Positions 4,313-18,651 of a stretch of 22,523 nucleotides of DNA are shown here, piece by piece. Made by a program: the position numbers and the translations under genes. The notes beneath the pieces are model-generated. The model saw only the letters and a list, made by a program, of their open reading frames with translations, was not told the origin of the DNA and ran no database searches. The stretch's first letter is position 1, and each line of letters begins with the position of its first letter. The DNA lies in the IMG/VR virus record IMGVR_UViG_3300037558_001777, positions 1 to 22,523 of that record. One strand, given 5' to 3'. The stretch comes from a virus.

Positions 4313-4432
4313 ATGGCATCCGTATTAGCTGTTGTGATTAGCGTCTCGATTGTCGTGTTTGGTAGCGGCGCAATGTTTCTGACCGGTTTTGCAGCTAGGC
4401 ACACACCATGTTCTCCGGCATTATCACGGTAG
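4313..4432 (+). CDS. Tiny membrane protein, 39 aa
   Basis: A 39-codon frame starts 4 bases after the previous stop. Residues 2-28 are almost entirely hydrophobic (ASVLAVVISVSIVVFGSGAM then FLTGFAA), enough for one membrane crossing, followed by a short polar end. It overlaps the start of the peptidase gene by 25 bases in another frame. Tight packing in a run of membrane proteins supports a real gene, but at this length chance cannot be excluded. A pinholin or antiholin-like role beside a lysis enzyme is possible; no motif proves it. Confidence 0.45.
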   Translation: MASVLAVVISVSIVVFGSGAMFLTGFAARHTPCSPALSR

Positions 4433-5148
4433 TTTTGTTGTCGAGCGTTGTTGTGCCATTGAGTCTGCTGCCTTTCTTCAGATGGTTTCGTGAAACACCG
4501 CACCAGATGGCAGCGATCAAAGAACTAGAAGACTCGCTTCTCGATCAAAACCTGTTGGATGAAGAGGCAGGGTGGTTTCAAACTTGGAAAACCACAGGCC
4601 GTAGCCAACAGGTTTACGGAGTTCCGTATTACAGCCAGTTAGACAGCCACACCGGTTACGGCTACAGAGAATGTTTTGATGCAGCGGCTGCAATGGTTGC
4701 TTCGTTTCATCGAGCTGTAAAAGGCCAGGGCGTTTACCGTCAACTTCGTAGAAAGTATGGCGATACAACTGAAGTTTACGCTCAGGTATCTGCGTTAAGG
4801 GCTCTTGGCTTAGACGTTGAGTTTCGCAAAAACATAAGAGTGGAGGACATTGAGATTGAGATTGACGCCGGTAGACCGCTGATGGTTGGTTGGCTTCATC
4901 GCGGAGATTTCACCGAGGGCAAACCTGCTGTTTGTGACAGCAACGGATGTGGTCATTGGAGCGTAATTGTCGGGTATAACAAAGACGAATTTATTGCGAT
5001 GGATCCAATGGGCAGGCCCGACATGCATCGTGGCGGACATGACATCCGAAAATCAGGAGAGCTAGTGAGGATGTCGCGGCCCGCGTTCTATCAAAGATTT
5101 TTGATCGAGGGTGAAGCGTCTGGGTGGGGCATTTTTGTCGACCGATGA
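4408..5148 (+). CDS. Membrane-anchored C39-like (papain-fold) cysteine peptidase, possible endolysin
   Basis: The 246-residue protein has one N-terminal hydrophobic segment (residues 4-24), a linker, and a peptidase domain at about 68-245. The domain starts with VYGVPYYSQLDS, as in the C39-like family 2, and shows the expected catalytic set: Cys89 in RECFDAAAAM, His183 in GHWSVIVGY and Asp199 in AMDPMG. Family members cut peptides, including leader peptides and cell-wall cross-links. Here the gene ends a run of small membrane proteins and no lysozyme or amidase gene is visible in the window, so a wall-peptide hydrolase held in the membrane until lysis is plausible. The segment is rich in Val, Ser and Leu rather than Gly/Ala, so a signal-anchor-release endolysin is only one option. 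The next gene overlaps it as ATGA. Confidence 0.75.
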   Translation: MFSGIITVVLLSSVVVPLSLLPFFRWFRETPHQMAAIKELEDSLLDQNLLDEEAGWFQTWKTTGRSQQVYGVPYYSQLDSHTGYGYRECFDAAAAMVASFHRAVKGQGVYRQLRRKYGDTTEVYAQVSALRALGLDVEFRKNIRVEDIEIEIDAGRPLMVGWLHRGDFTEGKPAVCDSNGCGHWSVIVGYNKDEFIAMDPMGRPDMHRGGHDIRKSGELVRMSRPAFYQRFLIEGEASGWGIFVDR

Positions 5149-13418: not shown

Positions 13419-13563
13419 CACCGGCGTTATCCGCATCCAGATCGATGATCTGGTTGGCTTTGTTGACTCCCAACATCTGATAAATGCAAAAATTTTGAAG
13501 CTGCAGGTAACGTGGCGTCAGCGAAACAATCCTTGTGGATTCAATCAACAGCCTGAAGTCTGA
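13366..13563 (+). CDS. Small hypothetical protein, 65 aa
   Basis: An in-frame ATG at 13366 gives 65 residues; an ATG at 13288 would lie deep in the upstream gene. The core is beta-like (KIRVLNTGVIRIQIDDLVGFVD) with a basic end (TWRQRNNPC). It overlaps the upstream gene by 53 bases and the methyltransferase start by 29 bases. The overlap with both neighbours is larger than elsewhere in this operon, so the evidence is weaker. Confidence 0.4.
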   Translation: MSADFETPTPNPKIRVLNTGVIRIQIDDLVGFVDSQHLINAKILKLQVTWRQRNNPCGFNQQPEV

Positions 13564-15103
13564 CCATAAAAATGCACGGAAGCGCACAGATCGATCCTCT
13601 GAACTAATCAAAGAGTCCCTACAGCGCTACGGCGCCGCTCGCTCCATCGTTATCGACGAAGAAAATCGCATACTTGCCGGCAACGGCACTGTCGAGGGCG
13701 CTAAGGCTGCAGGCATCAGCAACATTCGAGTCATCGAAACCGAGGGCGACGAAATCATCGCGGTGCGCCGCACTGGCTTATCCGAGGAGCAAAAAGTCGG
13801 GCTTGCCCTCGCCGATAACCGCACGTCTGATCTCTCTACCTGGGATCAGGAGATGTTGAACCGGCTCTCTGATGAGCATGACATCAGCCCTTGGTTCTCC
13901 GATGCAGATCTGACCGGCCTTGCAGAGGCGGAGGATCTCGCGGCATTTGATGAGGCTATTAACGATTCGATTGAGGCAGAAACAGCCCAGCCCGGCGCAA
14001 AGCTTGCAGATCGTTTCGGCATTGCTCCGTTCTCAATCCTCAACGCTCGTGAGGGTTGGTGGCAGGAGCGCAAACGACAGTGGCTGGATCTCGGCATTCA
14101 GTCAGAGGTCGGTCGCGAGGGCAATCTCCTCGGCATGTCCGAGACAGTGCTGCAGCCTGATGAACAGCTGCGCCAACTAAAGGAGGCCCTGCAGGCTGGA
14201 GGCGGAGCAGGTAACGGCAGCATTCACGCCAAAATCCCCGGCTACTACCAAAAGAAAAACGCAGGTATGAGCGACGAGCAAATCGTCGCCGAGTTCCTTG
14301 ACTCTGGCTCTCAGATCGGCGCAGGCACCTCAATCTTCGATCCTGTCTTAGCTGAGCTGGCCTACCGTTGGTTTTCTCCCCCAGATGGCGTCATCCTCGA
14401 TCCGTTCGCTGGCGGATCAGTCCGCGGCATCGTTGCCCTGAAGTCAGGTCGGCAGTACATCGGCTGCGATCTACGGGCTGAGCAAGTCGAGGCCAACCGC
14501 GCCCAGGGCGCAGAGATCACCCCGGACAACCCGCCGATTTGGTACTGCAGCGACTCCCGCAACATCGACCGGGTTTGCGAGGGACTGCAAGCCGACATGA
14601 TTTTTTCCTGTCCTCCTTACGCAGATCTTGAGGTTTACAGCGACGATCCGAAGGATTTGTCCACCCTCCCCTATGACCAGTTCGTTGAGAGCTACCGGGA
14701 AATTATCGCTAAATCCTGCAGCCTCCTGAAGGACAACGCCTTCGCATGTTTCATCGTTGGCGACGTACGCGACAAAAAGGGCAATTATTACAACTTCGTC
14801 GGCGACACCATCAAAGCGTTCACCGATGCAGGGCTCAGCTACTACAACGAGGCGATCCTCATCACTCCCGTCGGCACCCTGCCGATAAGGGCCGGCCGCA
14901 CGTTTGCAAGCACTCGCAAGCTGGGCAAAACTCACCAGAACGTTCTCGTTTTCCTCAAAGGCGATGCCCGCAAAGCCGTGGCCGCTTGCGGCGAATGCGA
15001 TTTTGCAGAGGTCGAGGAACAGCCCGCAGAGCACGGCCCCGTAGCTGAGAGCACTGAGTACGGCGAGAAACTGACCGCTGATTCCATCGGAGGTGAGCTT
15101 TGA
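13535..15103 (+). CDS. ParB-like domain fused to a DNA amino-methyltransferase
   Basis: The 522-residue protein starts at GTG 13535. Residues 10-130 form a ParB/sulfiredoxin-like domain (RSIVIDEENRILAGNGTVEGAKAAG, ADNRTSDLSTW). The central part has REGWWQERKRQWLDLGI, seen in phage fusions of this kind. The methyltransferase domain at 265-480 has the S-adenosylmethionine-binding motif DPFAGGSVRG (289-298) and the catalytic motif SCPPY (358-362), in that order, with YSDDPKDLS after it. Motif IV of the (D/N/S)PPY type transfers methyl groups to exocyclic amino groups (N6-adenine or N4-cytosine). It may protect phage DNA from restriction or prepare bases for further modification. The next gene overlaps its stop by 4 bases. 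Confidence 0.85.
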   Translation: MDSINSLKSDHKNARKRTDRSSELIKESLQRYGAARSIVIDEENRILAGNGTVEGAKAAGISNIRVIETEGDEIIAVRRTGLSEEQKVGLALADNRTSDLSTWDQEMLNRLSDEHDISPWFSDADLTGLAEAEDLAAFDEAINDSIEAETAQPGAKLADRFGIAPFSILNAREGWWQERKRQWLDLGIQSEVGREGNLLGMSETVLQPDEQLRQLKEALQAGGGAGNGSIHAKIPGYYQKKNAGMSDEQIVAEFLDSGSQIGAGTSIFDPVLAELAYRWFSPPDGVILDPFAGGSVRGIVALKSGRQYIGCDLRAEQVEANRAQGAEITPDNPPIWYCSDSRNIDRVCEGLQADMIFSCPPYADLEVYSDDPKDLSTLPYDQFVESYREIIAKSCSLLKDNAFACFIVGDVRDKKGNYYNFVGDTIKAFTDAGLSYYNEAILITPVGTLPIRAGRTFASTRKLGKTHQNVLVFLKGDARKAVAACGECDFAEVEEQPAEHGPVAESTEYGEKLTADSIGGEL

Positions 15104-16260
15104 GCGATGCACCGGCTTGGGCGCTTGGTTACGACCTCGCGTTCCTAAAACAGCTCGCCGTAGTTTTTGCTCGCGATTTCAAGCCGCACTGCTACGGAGC
15201 GTTCGGCCTGCCAAAAGAACGCGACATCGCTACCGCGATGAAGGAGGGTCAGTTGGCCTGGACTCGCTCACCTGACACCAACGAGATTGCAGCTGTAGCG
15301 ATGTTCCGCGTCGCCAAGGTTGCCAGCTCTCAGAGCGACTTCGCTCAGCGGCCGGTCAGCATCCACAAAGGTGATCTGCAGATCCGCGCCCTCGCTGGCA
15401 ACCCTGCAGATCTCAGCAGGCTCGTCACCAAACTGATGGACAAAGCCGGCCCACGGCCCGTCTGGATTGAGCTACACGAAGAGAACCGCCAGATCAGAGA
15501 TGTCGCAATCAGCCTCGGTTTCAAATCAGTGGCAACCAAGGTCACTGCATCGTCCGACATCAAAGCGCTCTACATCCATGGGGTAGCCAACCCAACGGCT
15601 CGCGTTCAAGGTGGCCTCTACTCCTCAGACATTCCGGCACTGAAACTCTTGGGATGCGGGGCGATGCCTGGCGAGATTCAGGCGTGCCTCGAAGAAATCT
15701 CTGCGTTCAACCCGGCATGGGAGCAGCACTACAGCTCCTATAACAAACGCAAAAGCTGGACAGCTATCGCCCTACAGGGTTTCGATCCCTCTGATCCTGG
15801 GTTCATCATTAAACCGGGAGAGATGAGCAAAGGCTGGAAACAGGACAATCCCGAGCGGCTTAAGGCTGCTTGCGCTCCAACCATCGCTGCAATGGCACTA
15901 CCTACGATTTGGCGCTTGGCTAAATCCATCCCAGGCAAACTCGAGCGGGTTCGGCTGATGCGCTTGCGTGCATCGAATGGCGAGCTAACTCGTCATGCCG
16001 ACATCACAGATCGAGATGCGGGCACCGCAGACGGCAGGATCGCCCGCTTGCACATCCCCCTGCGAACAGCAAAAGGCTGTGAGTTTTCAAGCTGGGAGCT
16101 GTCAGGGGATCGCACTCGTTTGCATTTCCCAGCCGGCGCACTGTTTTACCTCGACATCCGAAAGCCCCACGCGGTCAAAAACACCAGCGATTGCGATCGA
16201 ATTCACCTCGTTGTTGATGTCGCTTGCAACTCTCAAGTCAGGAGGTTGATCGATGCCTGA
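15100..16260 (+). CDS. GNAT-like domain fused to a 2-oxoglutarate/Fe(II) dioxygenase
   Basis: The 386-residue protein starts at TTG 15100, preceded by GGAGGTGA. The C-terminal domain (about 215-386) matches the aspartyl/asparaginyl hydroxylase-like double-stranded beta-helix: the His299-x-Asp301 pair (TRHADITDR), distal His357 (RKPHAVKN) and Arg367 for 2-oxoglutarate ten residues later (RIHLVVDV). The N-terminal part looks like a GNAT fold: a strand-rich middle and PVWIELHEENRQIRDVAISLGFKS at about 124-147, which resembles the N...LGF end of acetyltransferases. That part is less certain. Such oxygenases hydroxylate proteins, small molecules or nucleobases. Its place between a DNA methyltransferase and a PLP-type enzyme suggests work on DNA or a base-attached group. 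Confidence 0.65.
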   Translation: MSDAPAWALGYDLAFLKQLAVVFARDFKPHCYGAFGLPKERDIATAMKEGQLAWTRSPDTNEIAAVAMFRVAKVASSQSDFAQRPVSIHKGDLQIRALAGNPADLSRLVTKLMDKAGPRPVWIELHEENRQIRDVAISLGFKSVATKVTASSDIKALYIHGVANPTARVQGGLYSSDIPALKLLGCGAMPGEIQACLEEISAFNPAWEQHYSSYNKRKSWTAIALQGFDPSDPGFIIKPGEMSKGWKQDNPERLKAACAPTIAAMALPTIWRLAKSIPGKLERVRLMRLRASNGELTRHADITDRDAGTADGRIARLHIPLRTAKGCEFSSWELSGDRTRLHFPAGALFYLDIRKPHAVKNTSDCDRIHLVVDVACNSQVRRLIDA

Positions 16261-16978
16261 TCGTTGGTGGCAGCCCACGCCAATCATCGACCGCCACGAT
16301 CGTTTTCTGATCGTCCGAGATGACCAGGTGCCTGGAGGATCAAAGATGCGGTTCCTGCCTTATCTCGTGCAGGACGGCAAAGAGGTTGTGTTCGGCGGCC
16401 CGTTCTGCGGCGGGGCTCCCTATGCACTGTCTGTATGGGGGCAGCGGACCAACAACAAAGTCACGCTGTTTTACGCCAAACGAAAAGAGCTGCACGTCCG
16501 CCAGAAAAAAGCCCTGCTCAATGGCGCAACGATTTATCAGGTGCCCTACGGCTACATGACAAACGTGCAGGCAAAGGCCAAGCGTTACGCCCGAGAACAC
16601 GACGCTTTGTTCCTGCCGCTCGGCTTCGATGTTCCAGAGGCTTCGAACCCTTTTATTGAACAGATGCGCCGCGTCCGATCGATGGTTGGAAATGTGGAAC
16701 AGGTGTGGGCAGCAACGGGGTCAGGGATGCTGGCCCGCTGTCTCGGCGAGGCGTTCTACCCGACTCCTGTTCATGGCGTCGTTGTCGGCCTGGCAAGTCG
16801 CAACTCAAAACAGCCATACCCGTCCAACGTCACGCTGCACGAGTACCCGAAACAGTTCTCGTGGTCCTGTTCCTACGACGCGCCTTTCCCTACGTGCGGT
16901 AACTACGATCGGAAAGCGTGGGAGCTATGTCACAAACTGTCGAAAGGAACGGTTCTGTTTTGGAATGTTTTGGGGTAA
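16253..16978 (+). CDS. PLP-dependent enzyme-like protein of fold type II
   Basis: ATG 16253 has a perfect AGGAGG seven bases upstream and overlaps the previous gene by 8 bases. The 241-residue protein resembles ACC deaminase and D-cysteine desulfhydrase types: VPGGSKMRFLPYL (residues 26-38) with Lys31 at the position of the PLP-binding lysine in GGNKxRKLE, FGGPFCGGAPYALSVWG (47-63) like the GGxQSNHAxA segment, a NGATIYQVPYG stretch, and ATGSGMLARCLGE (154-166) like the phosphate-binding loop. It is shorter than the usual 320-340 residues, so part of the fold may be lost. It is directly before terS. Such enzymes act on amino acids; here the substrate could be an amino acid bound to a DNA base, which is inference. 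A phosphoribosyltransferase-like fold is an alternative. Confidence 0.5.
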   Translation: MPDRWWQPTPIIDRHDRFLIVRDDQVPGGSKMRFLPYLVQDGKEVVFGGPFCGGAPYALSVWGQRTNNKVTLFYAKRKELHVRQKKALLNGATIYQVPYGYMTNVQAKAKRYAREHDALFLPLGFDVPEASNPFIEQMRRVRSMVGNVEQVWAATGSGMLARCLGEAFYPTPVHGVVVGLASRNSKQPYPSNVTLHEYPKQFSWSCSYDAPFPTCGNYDRKAWELCHKLSKGTVLFWNVLG

Positions 16979-16981
16979 ATC

Positions 16982-17305
16982 ATGCCGGCTAGTAACACGA
17001 CCAGAGCCAAAGTCGAGATGAGGGTGAACCGGATCGCTCGTTTGTTATCAAATGGCGCAACGAGATCTGAATGCGTGCAATACGGTTCAAATGAGTGGGG
17101 CATCGGCGCCCGGCAAATCGACAAGTACATCAACCGTGCCCGAGAGCTGCTGAGAGCCGACTGGGAGATGGATCGGCAGACAATGGTGGCCGAACTGCTG
17201 AGCCAATGCGCAACGCTGCAAAAGGAGGCGCGCAAGCAGGGCAACCTCAACGCTGCACTGGGCTGCATTAACTCAGCCGCACGTCTCGCGAGGATCTTCG
17301 ATTGA
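16982..17305 (+). CDS. terS: Terminase small subunit-like protein
   Basis: The 107-residue protein has a helix-turn-helix start (RVNRIARLLSNGATRSECVQYGSNEWGIGARQIDKYINRAR, residues 14-53) and a helical second half (MVAELLSQCATLQKEARKQGNLNAALGCINSAARLARIF), the layout of small terminase subunits: DNA recognition followed by oligomerisation. Its position one gene step before the large subunit, with the stop overlapping the large-subunit start (TTGA), supports this. The gene starts 3 bases after the PLP-type enzyme. Confidence 0.75.
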   Translation: MPASNTTRAKVEMRVNRIARLLSNGATRSECVQYGSNEWGIGARQIDKYINRARELLRADWEMDRQTMVAELLSQCATLQKEARKQGNLNAALGCINSAARLARIFD

Positions 17306-18651
17306 CCATCCTCGACGCCGTCCCACCGGGCTACGTACTAAACCGGCCCGGCGAACATGGCCGCGATCTCGACATGCAGGAGCTGTTGAATCGCGTGCGG
17401 GAGGATCTGCACCCAGGACAGCGCGATTTTGTAGACGATTGCTCGACGCAGATTATCGGCGTATCCGCTGGCTATGGGGCAGGCAAAACGCGAGCGCTAG
17501 CCGCAAAGACCTTGTTTATGGCCGCGGCCAACCAAGGCTTCACCGGATGCGTAATGGAACCCACCGGACCGCTTATACGTGACATATGGATGAATGACTT
17601 CGAGGAATTTCTCGAGGCGTACGAGGTGCCCTATACGTTCCGGGCCTCGCCTCTTCCCGAGTACATCTTGCATTTACCTAAAGCGGACACAAAAGTTCTG
17701 TGCCGAAGCTTTGAGAACTGGTCGCGCATTATCGGTTTAAACCTGGCGTACGTTCTCGCGGACGAAATCGACACTGTTAACCCAACAACCTGTCAACGAG
17801 CCTTTCCCAAAATCCTCGGCCGTCTGCGCGCTGGCAACGTGCGTCAGTTCGCTGCAGCATCAACACCTGAGGGTTTCCGTTGGATGTGGAAAACGTTCGG
17901 TTCAGAGGATGCCCAACAGCGGAGCGATCGCAGGCTAATTAAAATGAGGACGGTGGATAATCCGCATCTACCCCATGATTTCATCGAACGGCTCGAGGCC
18001 AACTACGACCCAAGCATGTTGCAGGCGTACTTGCACGGCGAGTTCGTCAACCTCAACACCGGACAGGTCTACGACCGGTTCGATCGATCGAAACACGTAA
18101 CCAGCATCATTCCCGACGTCAGCTCCGAACCTCTACGCGTCGGCGTTGACTTCAACATTGGCAACATGTCGGCTGTAATTGGTGTTCGTCTTGGTAGCAA
18201 GCTCGTGCTGATCGATGAAATCAGTGGTGCTCACGATACGGACGCCATGGCCCTAGAAATACAACGTCGTGCTGATGGACGCCAGGTTTACGTTTACCCT
18301 GATGCCTCTGGTGGCAGCCGCAGTACAAATGCTTCACGTACGGACATTCAAATTTTGGAGTCCTACGGGTTTAGTAATCAATCACCAAAGGCCAACCCTC
18401 CCGTTCGTGATCGGGTGGCTTCTGTTCAAGCTTTGCTGGAAAACGGAAAGGGCGAAGTCAGATTGCAGGTTGCCGCAAATTGCAAACGAACGATTGAATG
18501 TTTAGAGCTGCAGAGTTACACCGAAGCCGGTGATCCCGATAAAGGTGCGGGTTATGACCATATGAATGATGCTTTGGGCTACTTGATTTACAGAGACTTC
18601 TCCATGATTCACTCGCGTGCGGGGCGGGGTACTGGAATCAGACTATATTGA
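17302..18651 (+). CDS. terL: Terminase large subunit (packaging ATPase and nuclease)
   Basis: The 449-residue protein has the packaging-motor layout. ATPase: Walker A SAGYGAGKT at 55-63, Walker B YVLADEID at 150-157, and the coupling motif AAASTPEG at 184-191. Nuclease: RNase H-like acidic residues Asp283 (VGVDFNIG), Asp334 (VYVYPDASG) and Asp423 (YDHMNDALGY). It translocates DNA into the prohead through the portal and cuts the concatemer. The start is TTG 17302, overlapping the terS stop, with GAGG eight bases upstream. Base composition falls from about 60% G+C in the ATPase part to 40-48% near the 3' end, suggesting a recombination point inside the gene. Confidence 0.93.
   Translation: MTILDAVPPGYVLNRPGEHGRDLDMQELLNRVREDLHPGQRDFVDDCSTQIIGVSAGYGAGKTRALAAKTLFMAAANQGFTGCVMEPTGPLIRDIWMNDFEEFLEAYEVPYTFRASPLPEYILHLPKADTKVLCRSFENWSRIIGLNLAYVLADEIDTVNPTTCQRAFPKILGRLRAGNVRQFAAASTPEGFRWMWKTFGSEDAQQRSDRRLIKMRTVDNPHLPHDFIERLEANYDPSMLQAYLHGEFVNLNTGQVYDRFDRSKHVTSIIPDVSSEPLRVGVDFNIGNMSAVIGVRLGSKLVLIDEISGAHDTDAMALEIQRRADGRQVYVYPDASGGSRSTNASRTDIQILESYGFSNQSPKANPPVRDRVASVQALLENGKGEVRLQVAANCKRTIECLELQSYTEAGDPDKGAGYDHMNDALGYLIYRDFSMIHSRAGRGTGIRLY

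Follow-up and report, generated by a model that had tools for sequence, protein, structure and literature searches.

The window analyzed here is the whole of a 22.5-kb viral record (IMGVR_UViG_3300037558_001777; 22,523 nt), which contains on its + strand three overlapping genes that an initial annotation had proposed to be a DNA-modification operon. Gene 1 (13535..15103, GTG start, 522 amino acids (aa)) encodes a methyltransferase-fold protein with a ParB-like domain (ParB-MT), gene 2 (15100..16260, TTG start, 386 aa) encodes a GNAT-like domain fused to a 2-oxoglutarate (2OG)-Fe(II) oxygenase, and gene 3 (16253..16978, ATG start, 241 aa) encodes a compact pyridoxal phosphate (PLP) enzyme of fold-type II that resembles D-cysteine desulfhydrase and 1-aminocyclopropane-1-carboxylate (ACC) deaminase. 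The overlaps of 4 bases (genes 1 and 2) and 8 bases (genes 2 and 3) given in that annotation were reproduced from the open reading frame (ORF) coordinates. The strong Shine-Dalgarno sites it had reported for two genes were read directly in the sequence before gene 2 (GGAGG, 15089..15093) and gene 3 (AGGAGG, 16240..16245), both on the + strand like all features of the window described below, and the active-site residues it had named were found in place in all three ORFs.

The ParB-like N-terminal domain of gene 1 (about 13535-13984) matches phrog_620 and phrog_15396 (E 1e-24 to 1e-27). The region at about 14264-15076 has the fold of an amino-methyltransferase (amino-MTase) with motif order X-I-IV; gene 1 passes the curated cut-off of the N6_N4_Mtase family PF01555 (E 6e-13, 49.6 bits, cut-off 26.7) and matches the phrog_498 DNA methyltransferase family (E 8e-109). 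In profile scans of the window ORFs, gene 1 matched PF01555 and not the C5-MTase family PF00145. Motif I reads DPFAGGSVRG (residues 289-298, which include G294 and R297; 14399..14428) and motif IV reads SCPPY (14606..14620). The amino-methyltransferase call therefore held for both motifs and for the family match, but not for the standard motif IV residue: the canonical [D/N/S]PP[Y/F/W] is absent from gene 1, where Cys359 occupies the D/N/S place. The sequence (S/T)CPPY is kept in nearly all members of the MT family; one member, L294, has FSSPPY.

The products of genes 2 and 3 were modeled with AlphaFold2, using alignments of loci from viral contigs and genomes. The oxygenase domain of gene 2 (about 15652-16257) passes the cut-off of PF05118, Asp_Arg_Hydrox (E 7e-8, 32.9 bits, cut-off 22.6), and in the model (predicted local distance difference test (pLDDT) score of 95.9) it has the HxD...H triad and the 2OG Arg within a double-stranded β-helix, as do the Asp/Asn/Pro hydroxylase 2OG oxygenases. 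Foldseek placed this domain nearest to L-proline cis-4-hydroxylase, a nucleoside-antibiotic β-hydroxylase, proline-3-hydroxylase, and AspH, and the matches for gene 2 include 4p7w, 7v4f, and AspH. Among 44 diverse gene 2 homologs, D301 of the iron-binding H299-A-D301 (15994..16002), the second iron ligand H357, and the 2OG-binding R367 (the latter two within 16168..16200) are invariant, and H299 is kept in at least 90%. The dioxygenase-type domain predicted earlier from these four residues is thus borne out by the PF05118 match and by residue conservation. A TET/JBP- or AlkB-type oxidation of a methyl group was considered and is disfavored, since the oxygenase groups with amino-acid hydroxylases instead.

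The N-terminal domain of gene 2 (about 15112-15579) has, from DSSP analysis of residues 13-160 in the model, the GNAT topology α1-α2-β2-β3-β4-α3-β5-α4-β6-β7. GNAT structures were missing from the top 50 Foldseek matches of gene 2, and the acetyl-CoA loop Q/RxxGxG/A that follows β4 is absent, this stretch reading ALAGNPADL in the window and being variable among homologs. The GNAT-like N terminus noticed in the initial annotation is consequently retained as a topology, in a confident model, but without its CoA loop, and Mom-like acyl-CoA chemistry is disfavored for gene 2 because of this absence. Over its full length, gene 2 has its best viral match in LilMcDreamy gp4, a Mycobacterium phage protein (TM 0.84, template modeling score). 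In one homologous locus (L022:1109-2983), the GNAT/oxygenase gene has an in-frame insert of ~250 residues that looks like an intein and contains a LAGLIDADG-like stretch.

Gene 3 matches phrog_7093, "threonine dehydratase" (E 2e-28), and scores below the cut-off of the PALP family (E 2e-4), which relatives of gene 3 pass. Its model (pLDDT 95.5) has the fold of PLP type II, and the nearest PDB structures are D-cysteine desulfhydrase and an ACC deaminase homolog (Foldseek E about 1e-10, TMq 0.71-0.78). Among 63 homologs, the predicted PLP lysine K31 (in RDD..GGSK; codon 16343..16345) and S157 and G158 of the predicted PLP phosphate loop GSG (residues 156-158; 16718..16726) are invariant, and G156 is kept in at least 90%. 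The model, the PHROG match, and the invariant lysine together substantiate the PLP fold-II-like protein that had been recognized from its GGSK and GSG sequences. The gene 3 family shares with D-cysteine desulfhydrase and ACC deaminase the fold, the RDD..GGxK lysine, and the GSG loop, but it is ~80-90 residues shorter, has a rewritten Asn substrate loop, and seldom occurs apart from a DNA MTase. In PLP fold-type-II enzymes, SNH is the consensus of the Asn-type substrate loop; in the gene 3 family, this substrate-carboxylate loop (SNH/T) gives way to PFCGGA or PAxGGAQ.

Conservation, gene order, and fusions of the trio

Homologous loci were collected by alignment-based scans of IMG/VR, from which the best 80 of 264 PLP and the best 79 of 161 oxygenase candidate loci were retained, and 34 more PLP loci were added from GTDB genomes. 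Associations were counted in non-redundant representatives with sufficient flank, which for the PLP representatives was at least 2.5 kb. An MT gene lies within 3 kb of the PLP gene in 43 of 48 homologs and another 4 have an oxygenase gene, while oxygenase representatives are accompanied by an MT and/or a PLP gene in 30 of 35 cases and by an amino acid:DNA transferase (ADDT, PF18724) in 3 of 35. Of 50,697 phage records, only 25 contain the MT family (E ≤ 1e-10), and because it is so rare, the association of the trio is not attributable to chance. No PLP homolog was found among plasmids.

The set stays together while its gene order varies (MT-oxygenase-PLP, MT-PLP-oxygenase, or oxygenase-PLP-MT). 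In Erythrobacter phages R6L and ZS04, in Pseudanabaena phage Pam4, and in viral contigs L312, L372, L393, and L412, the PLP domain interrupts the MT between its motifs I and IV. In addition, L149 encodes an MT-GNAT-oxygenase fusion, and L152 encodes a single chain of 1,218 aa with the arrangement ParB-MT-PLP-GNAT-oxygenase-MT. These fusions strongly imply that the proteins share one process and are in physical contact. Cultured phages that carry variants of the set are R6L, ZS04, Pam4, Microcystis phage Mae-JY30, LilMcDreamy, Croceibacter phage P2559S, and Pseudomonas phage ZRG1. From these results, we conclude that the trio is a genuine, conserved, and co-inherited unit around a DNA methyltransferase-like protein across many unrelated phages. 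The neighborhood search suggested in the initial annotation thus recovered the trio in other phages, and the contrary outcome which that annotation had named, homologs of genes 2 and 3 lying mostly away from DNA-modification genes, was not observed, as these were nearly always found with an MT or an ADDT.

An ADDT gene stands beside gene 2 homologs that lack the MT/PLP pair in three loci and in LilMcDreamy. A P-loop nucleotide kinase 3 (PF18751) and a Tet_JBP protein (PF12851) are also encoded in L169 and L174, and the kinase is encoded in L173. The ADDT, the kinase, and Tet/JBP are parts of a pathway that places an amino acid on a base, and such an amino acid would be what the ADDT and MT-PLP settings have in common. 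Its attachment to the base in both settings would fit the activity of an amino-acid hydroxylase. None of the ADDT, kinase, or Tet/JBP families was found among the window ORFs scanned. In LilMcDreamy, gp2 (L041:855-1787) adjoins the ADDT and is annotated as a queuine tRNA-ribosyltransferase; a clear Tet/JBP oxygenase (L169:7622-8530) matches phrog_6059, the family of gp2, as well, and gp2 is probably a misnamed Tet/JBP-like protein.

Other genes were observed in these neighborhoods. Where the PLP gene is absent, the oxygenase gene may be followed by a second small amino-MTase with TSLPD for motif IV (L127:7114-7740 and L155:7160-7774), which HCTV-2 gp12 (L220:4326-4967) may resemble. Between the oxygenase and PLP genes lie, at L056:4061-4660, L162:7059-7529, and L166:5678-6142, genes for small proteins whose Cys-His-Asp pattern is papain- or transglutaminase-like. 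In large marine phage contigs (L162-L168 and L176; up to 170 kb), the oxygenase and PLP genes are accompanied by an MT of another family, which lacks ParB and has AGWGGR as motif I and TSPPY as motif IV. Genes resembling 3′-phosphoadenosine 5′-phosphosulfate (PAPS) reductase, which are frequent companions of phage ParB/MTase genes, lie near an MT-PLP fusion or an MT/oxygenase pair at L039:1-939, L040:8386-9429, and L146:7802-8605.

In the window, 3 bases separate the end of gene 3 from an ORF (16982..17305) that probably encodes the small terminase subunit, and the large subunit gene follows (17302..18651; PF03237, PF17289, and phrog_2). The spacing to terS in the initial annotation was correct, whereas the identity of terS comes from its position directly upstream of the large subunit gene, the only sequence match being to phrog_34910, a PHROG of unknown function. 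The window also contains a cyanophage outer-membrane-protein-like domain (PF24653, 582-974) and a candidate endolysin of the C39-peptidase type (4408-5148), which, taken with the ERF and RusA genes, suggest that the source is a siphovirus-like phage of cyanobacteria.

A sister MT clade linked to AdoMet decarboxylase

The same MT family is found next to a different partner. In Pseudomonas phage ZRG1 and Croceibacter phage P2559S, the MT gene is overlapped by a gene for S-adenosylmethionine (AdoMet or SAM) decarboxylase (AdoMetDC; TIGR03330, above cut-off), and in ZRG1, this pair lies just upstream of the terminase genes. The same overlap occurs at L223:2895-4740, at L225:2865-4506, and in L227-L306, where a ParB-SCPPY MT has the motif I DxFAGD(T/S)VFG. 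In a scan centered on these two phages, an AdoMetDC gene overlaps or lies close to the 3′ end of the MT gene in 73 of 80 loci, a count biased by the motif-I pattern used in that scan. A comparison sample was taken from a search on motif IV only, and its counts are among the matches listed: AdoMetDC accompanies 7 of 8 MTs with a GD motif I and 0 of 95 with GG..R (Fisher p 4e-10), a small value that reflects common descent. In a tree built with motif I masked, the GD-type MTs form one clade, so the link arose in one evolutionary event and has been retained since then. The top discriminating MT positions are G294→D and R297→F, both fixed in the AdoMetDC-linked clade, and the loss of Arg and gain of Asp in motif I would fit the absence of the carboxylate of SAM.

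The P2559S decarboxylase is a true AdoMetDC, active by complementation, and that report reads phage AdoMetDC as a polyamine gene (PMC9992855). A spermidine synthase annotation is absent from the P2559S genome. A transferase partnered with decarboxylated SAM (dcSAM) suggests that the aminopropyl arm, and not the methyl group, is moved; unless the propyl arm is what matters, dcSAM would be an odd donor for a transferase, and the sister clade therefore supports propyl-arm transfer. The ParB-SCPPY MT with its AdoMetDC is thus a candidate DNA aminopropyl transferase system. In four cyanophages examined and in Bacillus phage vB_BcoS-136, speD is not adjacent to an SCPPY MT, and the AdoMetDC link thus appears specific to the GD..F clade of MTs. 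Between PLP-linked and lone MTs, there are zero discriminating positions, and both have the common GG..R motif I that is also present in the window MT. Because the same positions are conserved with and without a PLP gene, the PLP protein probably acts after the MT rather than as a supplier of its cofactor.

Proposed chemistry, alternatives, and known systems

Based on the conserved association and the fusions, the trio is likely a DNA hypermodification cassette of some sort, as the initial annotation had proposed. That annotation had offered as a variant a methylated base that is oxidized and decorated, and this part is disfavored, since the oxygenase belongs with the amino-acid hydroxylases and the sister clade suggests propyl-arm transfer. 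A methyl group on the base would also leave the PLP and oxygenase partners without an obvious substrate, whereas the 3-amino-3-carboxypropyl (acp) arm of SAM would provide a DNA-bound α-amino acid, on which a PLP enzyme and an amino-acid hydroxylase could naturally act.

For the full chemistry we offer a tentative scheme, held with slightly less than even confidence, in which an acp arm is placed on a base and the resulting DNA-bound amino acid is reworked by the PLP and GNAT/2OG enzymes. The ParB domain would aim the MT-fold enzyme at DNA, where the acp arm of SAM, and not its methyl group, would be transferred, most likely to the exocyclic amine of cytosine or adenine. The PLP enzyme, held on the MT or, in some phages, inside it, would then act on the α-amino acid, for example by deamination, elimination, epimerization, or decarboxylation. 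The GNAT-like/2OG-oxygenase protein would bind the side chain and hydroxylate it as Asp/Asn/Pro hydroxylases treat amino acids. The finished modification would protect virion DNA against the nucleases of the host shortly before it is packaged, a timing with which the adjacency to the terminase genes is in line. A wider generalization, of which we are slightly less confident, is that SCPPY MTs are DNA aminocarboxypropyl or aminopropyl transferases, the GG..R type using SAM and the GD..F type using dcSAM from the overlapping AdoMetDC gene, with partners that remodel the adduct.

Several points besides the common descent of the GD-type MTs weigh against this chemistry. That DNA is the substrate, that acp is transferred, in which order the steps follow, what the product is, and that it protects the DNA are all inferred, and the place proposed for R297 and D294 within the cofactor pocket is predicted from motif I. 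The motif-I switch may still serve methyl transfer from dcSAM. About 75 of the 95 GG..R-type MTs, among the matches listed, stand alone and could be plain methyltransferases, and 6 of 35 oxygenase representatives have an MT without a PLP gene. Finally, the loss of the Asn-type loop means that the substrate of the PLP protein may not be an ordinary amino acid.

This rewritten loop also bears on an alternative that we judge rather unlikely, in which the MT would only methylate or mark the base, the PLP enzyme would couple to it an aminoacrylate from a free amino acid by β-replacement, and the oxygenase would hydroxylate the product. Cysteine synthase-type coupling, as in willardiine synthesis, is a precedent for such a reaction; O-acetylserine sulfhydrylase and D-cysteine desulfhydrase are among the fold II relatives, the PLP domain is fused to the MT, and the oxygenase is associated with DNA-bound amino acids. 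Coupling of this kind, however, leaves the AdoMetDC sister clade unexplained and would be performed by a protein that lacks the usual substrate loop. The PLP enzyme could instead modify SAM itself into a new donor for the MT, like AdoMetDC in the sister clade or CmoA for CmoX, given that PLP and AdoMetDC genes occupy the same operon place and that a phage-made SAM analog has a published precedent (PMC12783734). We consider this improbable, as motif I is the same with and without the PLP gene and no position discriminates the two groups, unlike in the dcSAM-linked clade.

Ordinary N4 or N6 methylation of DNA, with the PLP and oxygenase genes as morons for host or phage metabolism, would agree with the Pfam and NCBIfam naming of the MT as a DNA methylase and with the many family members that stand alone. 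It is hard to reconcile with the near-obligate co-occurrence, the single-chain fusions, the presence of the oxygenase in ADDT loci, and the Cys that replaces D/N/S in motif IV, and we regard it as doubtful to the same degree as the modification of SAM. Since proteins are the substrates of AspH and prolyl hydroxylases and GNAT-fold enzymes serve many substrates, the trio might modify protein or tRNA and not DNA, but the ParB and DNA-MTase domains and the DNA-modification genes around all variants make this very improbable.

The acp scheme has partial parallels in described systems. ParB-N6_N4 MTase fusions of the phrog_498 kind, of which gene 1 is one, are common in phages, and PLP or dioxygenase partners are absent from the available text of the survey that describes them (PMC12704722). 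In the literature searched, of which coverage was partial, we found nothing direct on this gene set or on aminopropyl or acp modification of DNA. The CmoA/CmoX/CmoY pathway of Synechococcus phage S-B43 makes 5-carboxymethylcytosine from carboxy-SAM (Cx-SAM) and shares the logic that a DNA-MTase homolog moves a non-methyl group derived from SAM, which a later enzyme elaborates, with ParB domains common nearby (PMC12783734). CmoX belongs to the C5-MTases, has a Cys catalytic motif, and depends on CmoA, whereas the window MT is of the amino-MTase (PF01555) kind. Neither a CmoA-like family nor an AMP-forming ligase was found among the window ORFs scanned, PLP and 2OG enzymes being present instead. 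Mom of phage Mu shares a GNAT-like fold in a phage DNA-modification setting; in the trio, the GNAT topology is confined to the N-terminal domain of gene 2, which is fused to an oxygenase. Because its CoA-binding loop is missing, the Mom analogy drawn in the initial annotation is weak; the Mom family was not among the Pfam or PHROG matches of the trio, and no direct comparison with Mom was made.

Phage DNA hypermodifications defeat restriction enzymes and are a source of new enzymology, and the trio may be a variant of them, possibly with a new class of base chemistry. If the proposed scheme is correct, phage DNA would be disguised by a new chemistry, in which the amino-acid arm of SAM, whose use is known in RNA and polyamines and was not found for DNA in the literature searched, becomes a DNA building block. 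Some phage-borne speD genes would also gain a new role, as an alternative to the polyamine-synthesis reading of phage AdoMetDC. In the synthesis of tRNA wybutosine, TYW2 transfers acp and TYW5 hydroxylates the acp chain; the proposed scheme likewise has a Rossmann MT-fold enzyme that moves the acp arm of SAM and a 2OG enzyme that hydroxylates it, an analogy only, as TYW2 and TYW5 act on RNA and belong to different protein families. Hypermodification of the 5-hydroxymethyldeoxyuridine (5hmdU) type uses ADDT or aGPT, a P-loop kinase, and Tet/JBP; gene 2 homologs (LilMcDreamy gp4 and those of L169, L173, and L174) occupy such loci beside ADDT, whereas beside the gene 2 of the window, an MT and a PLP enzyme take the place of ADDT, kinase, and Tet/JBP.

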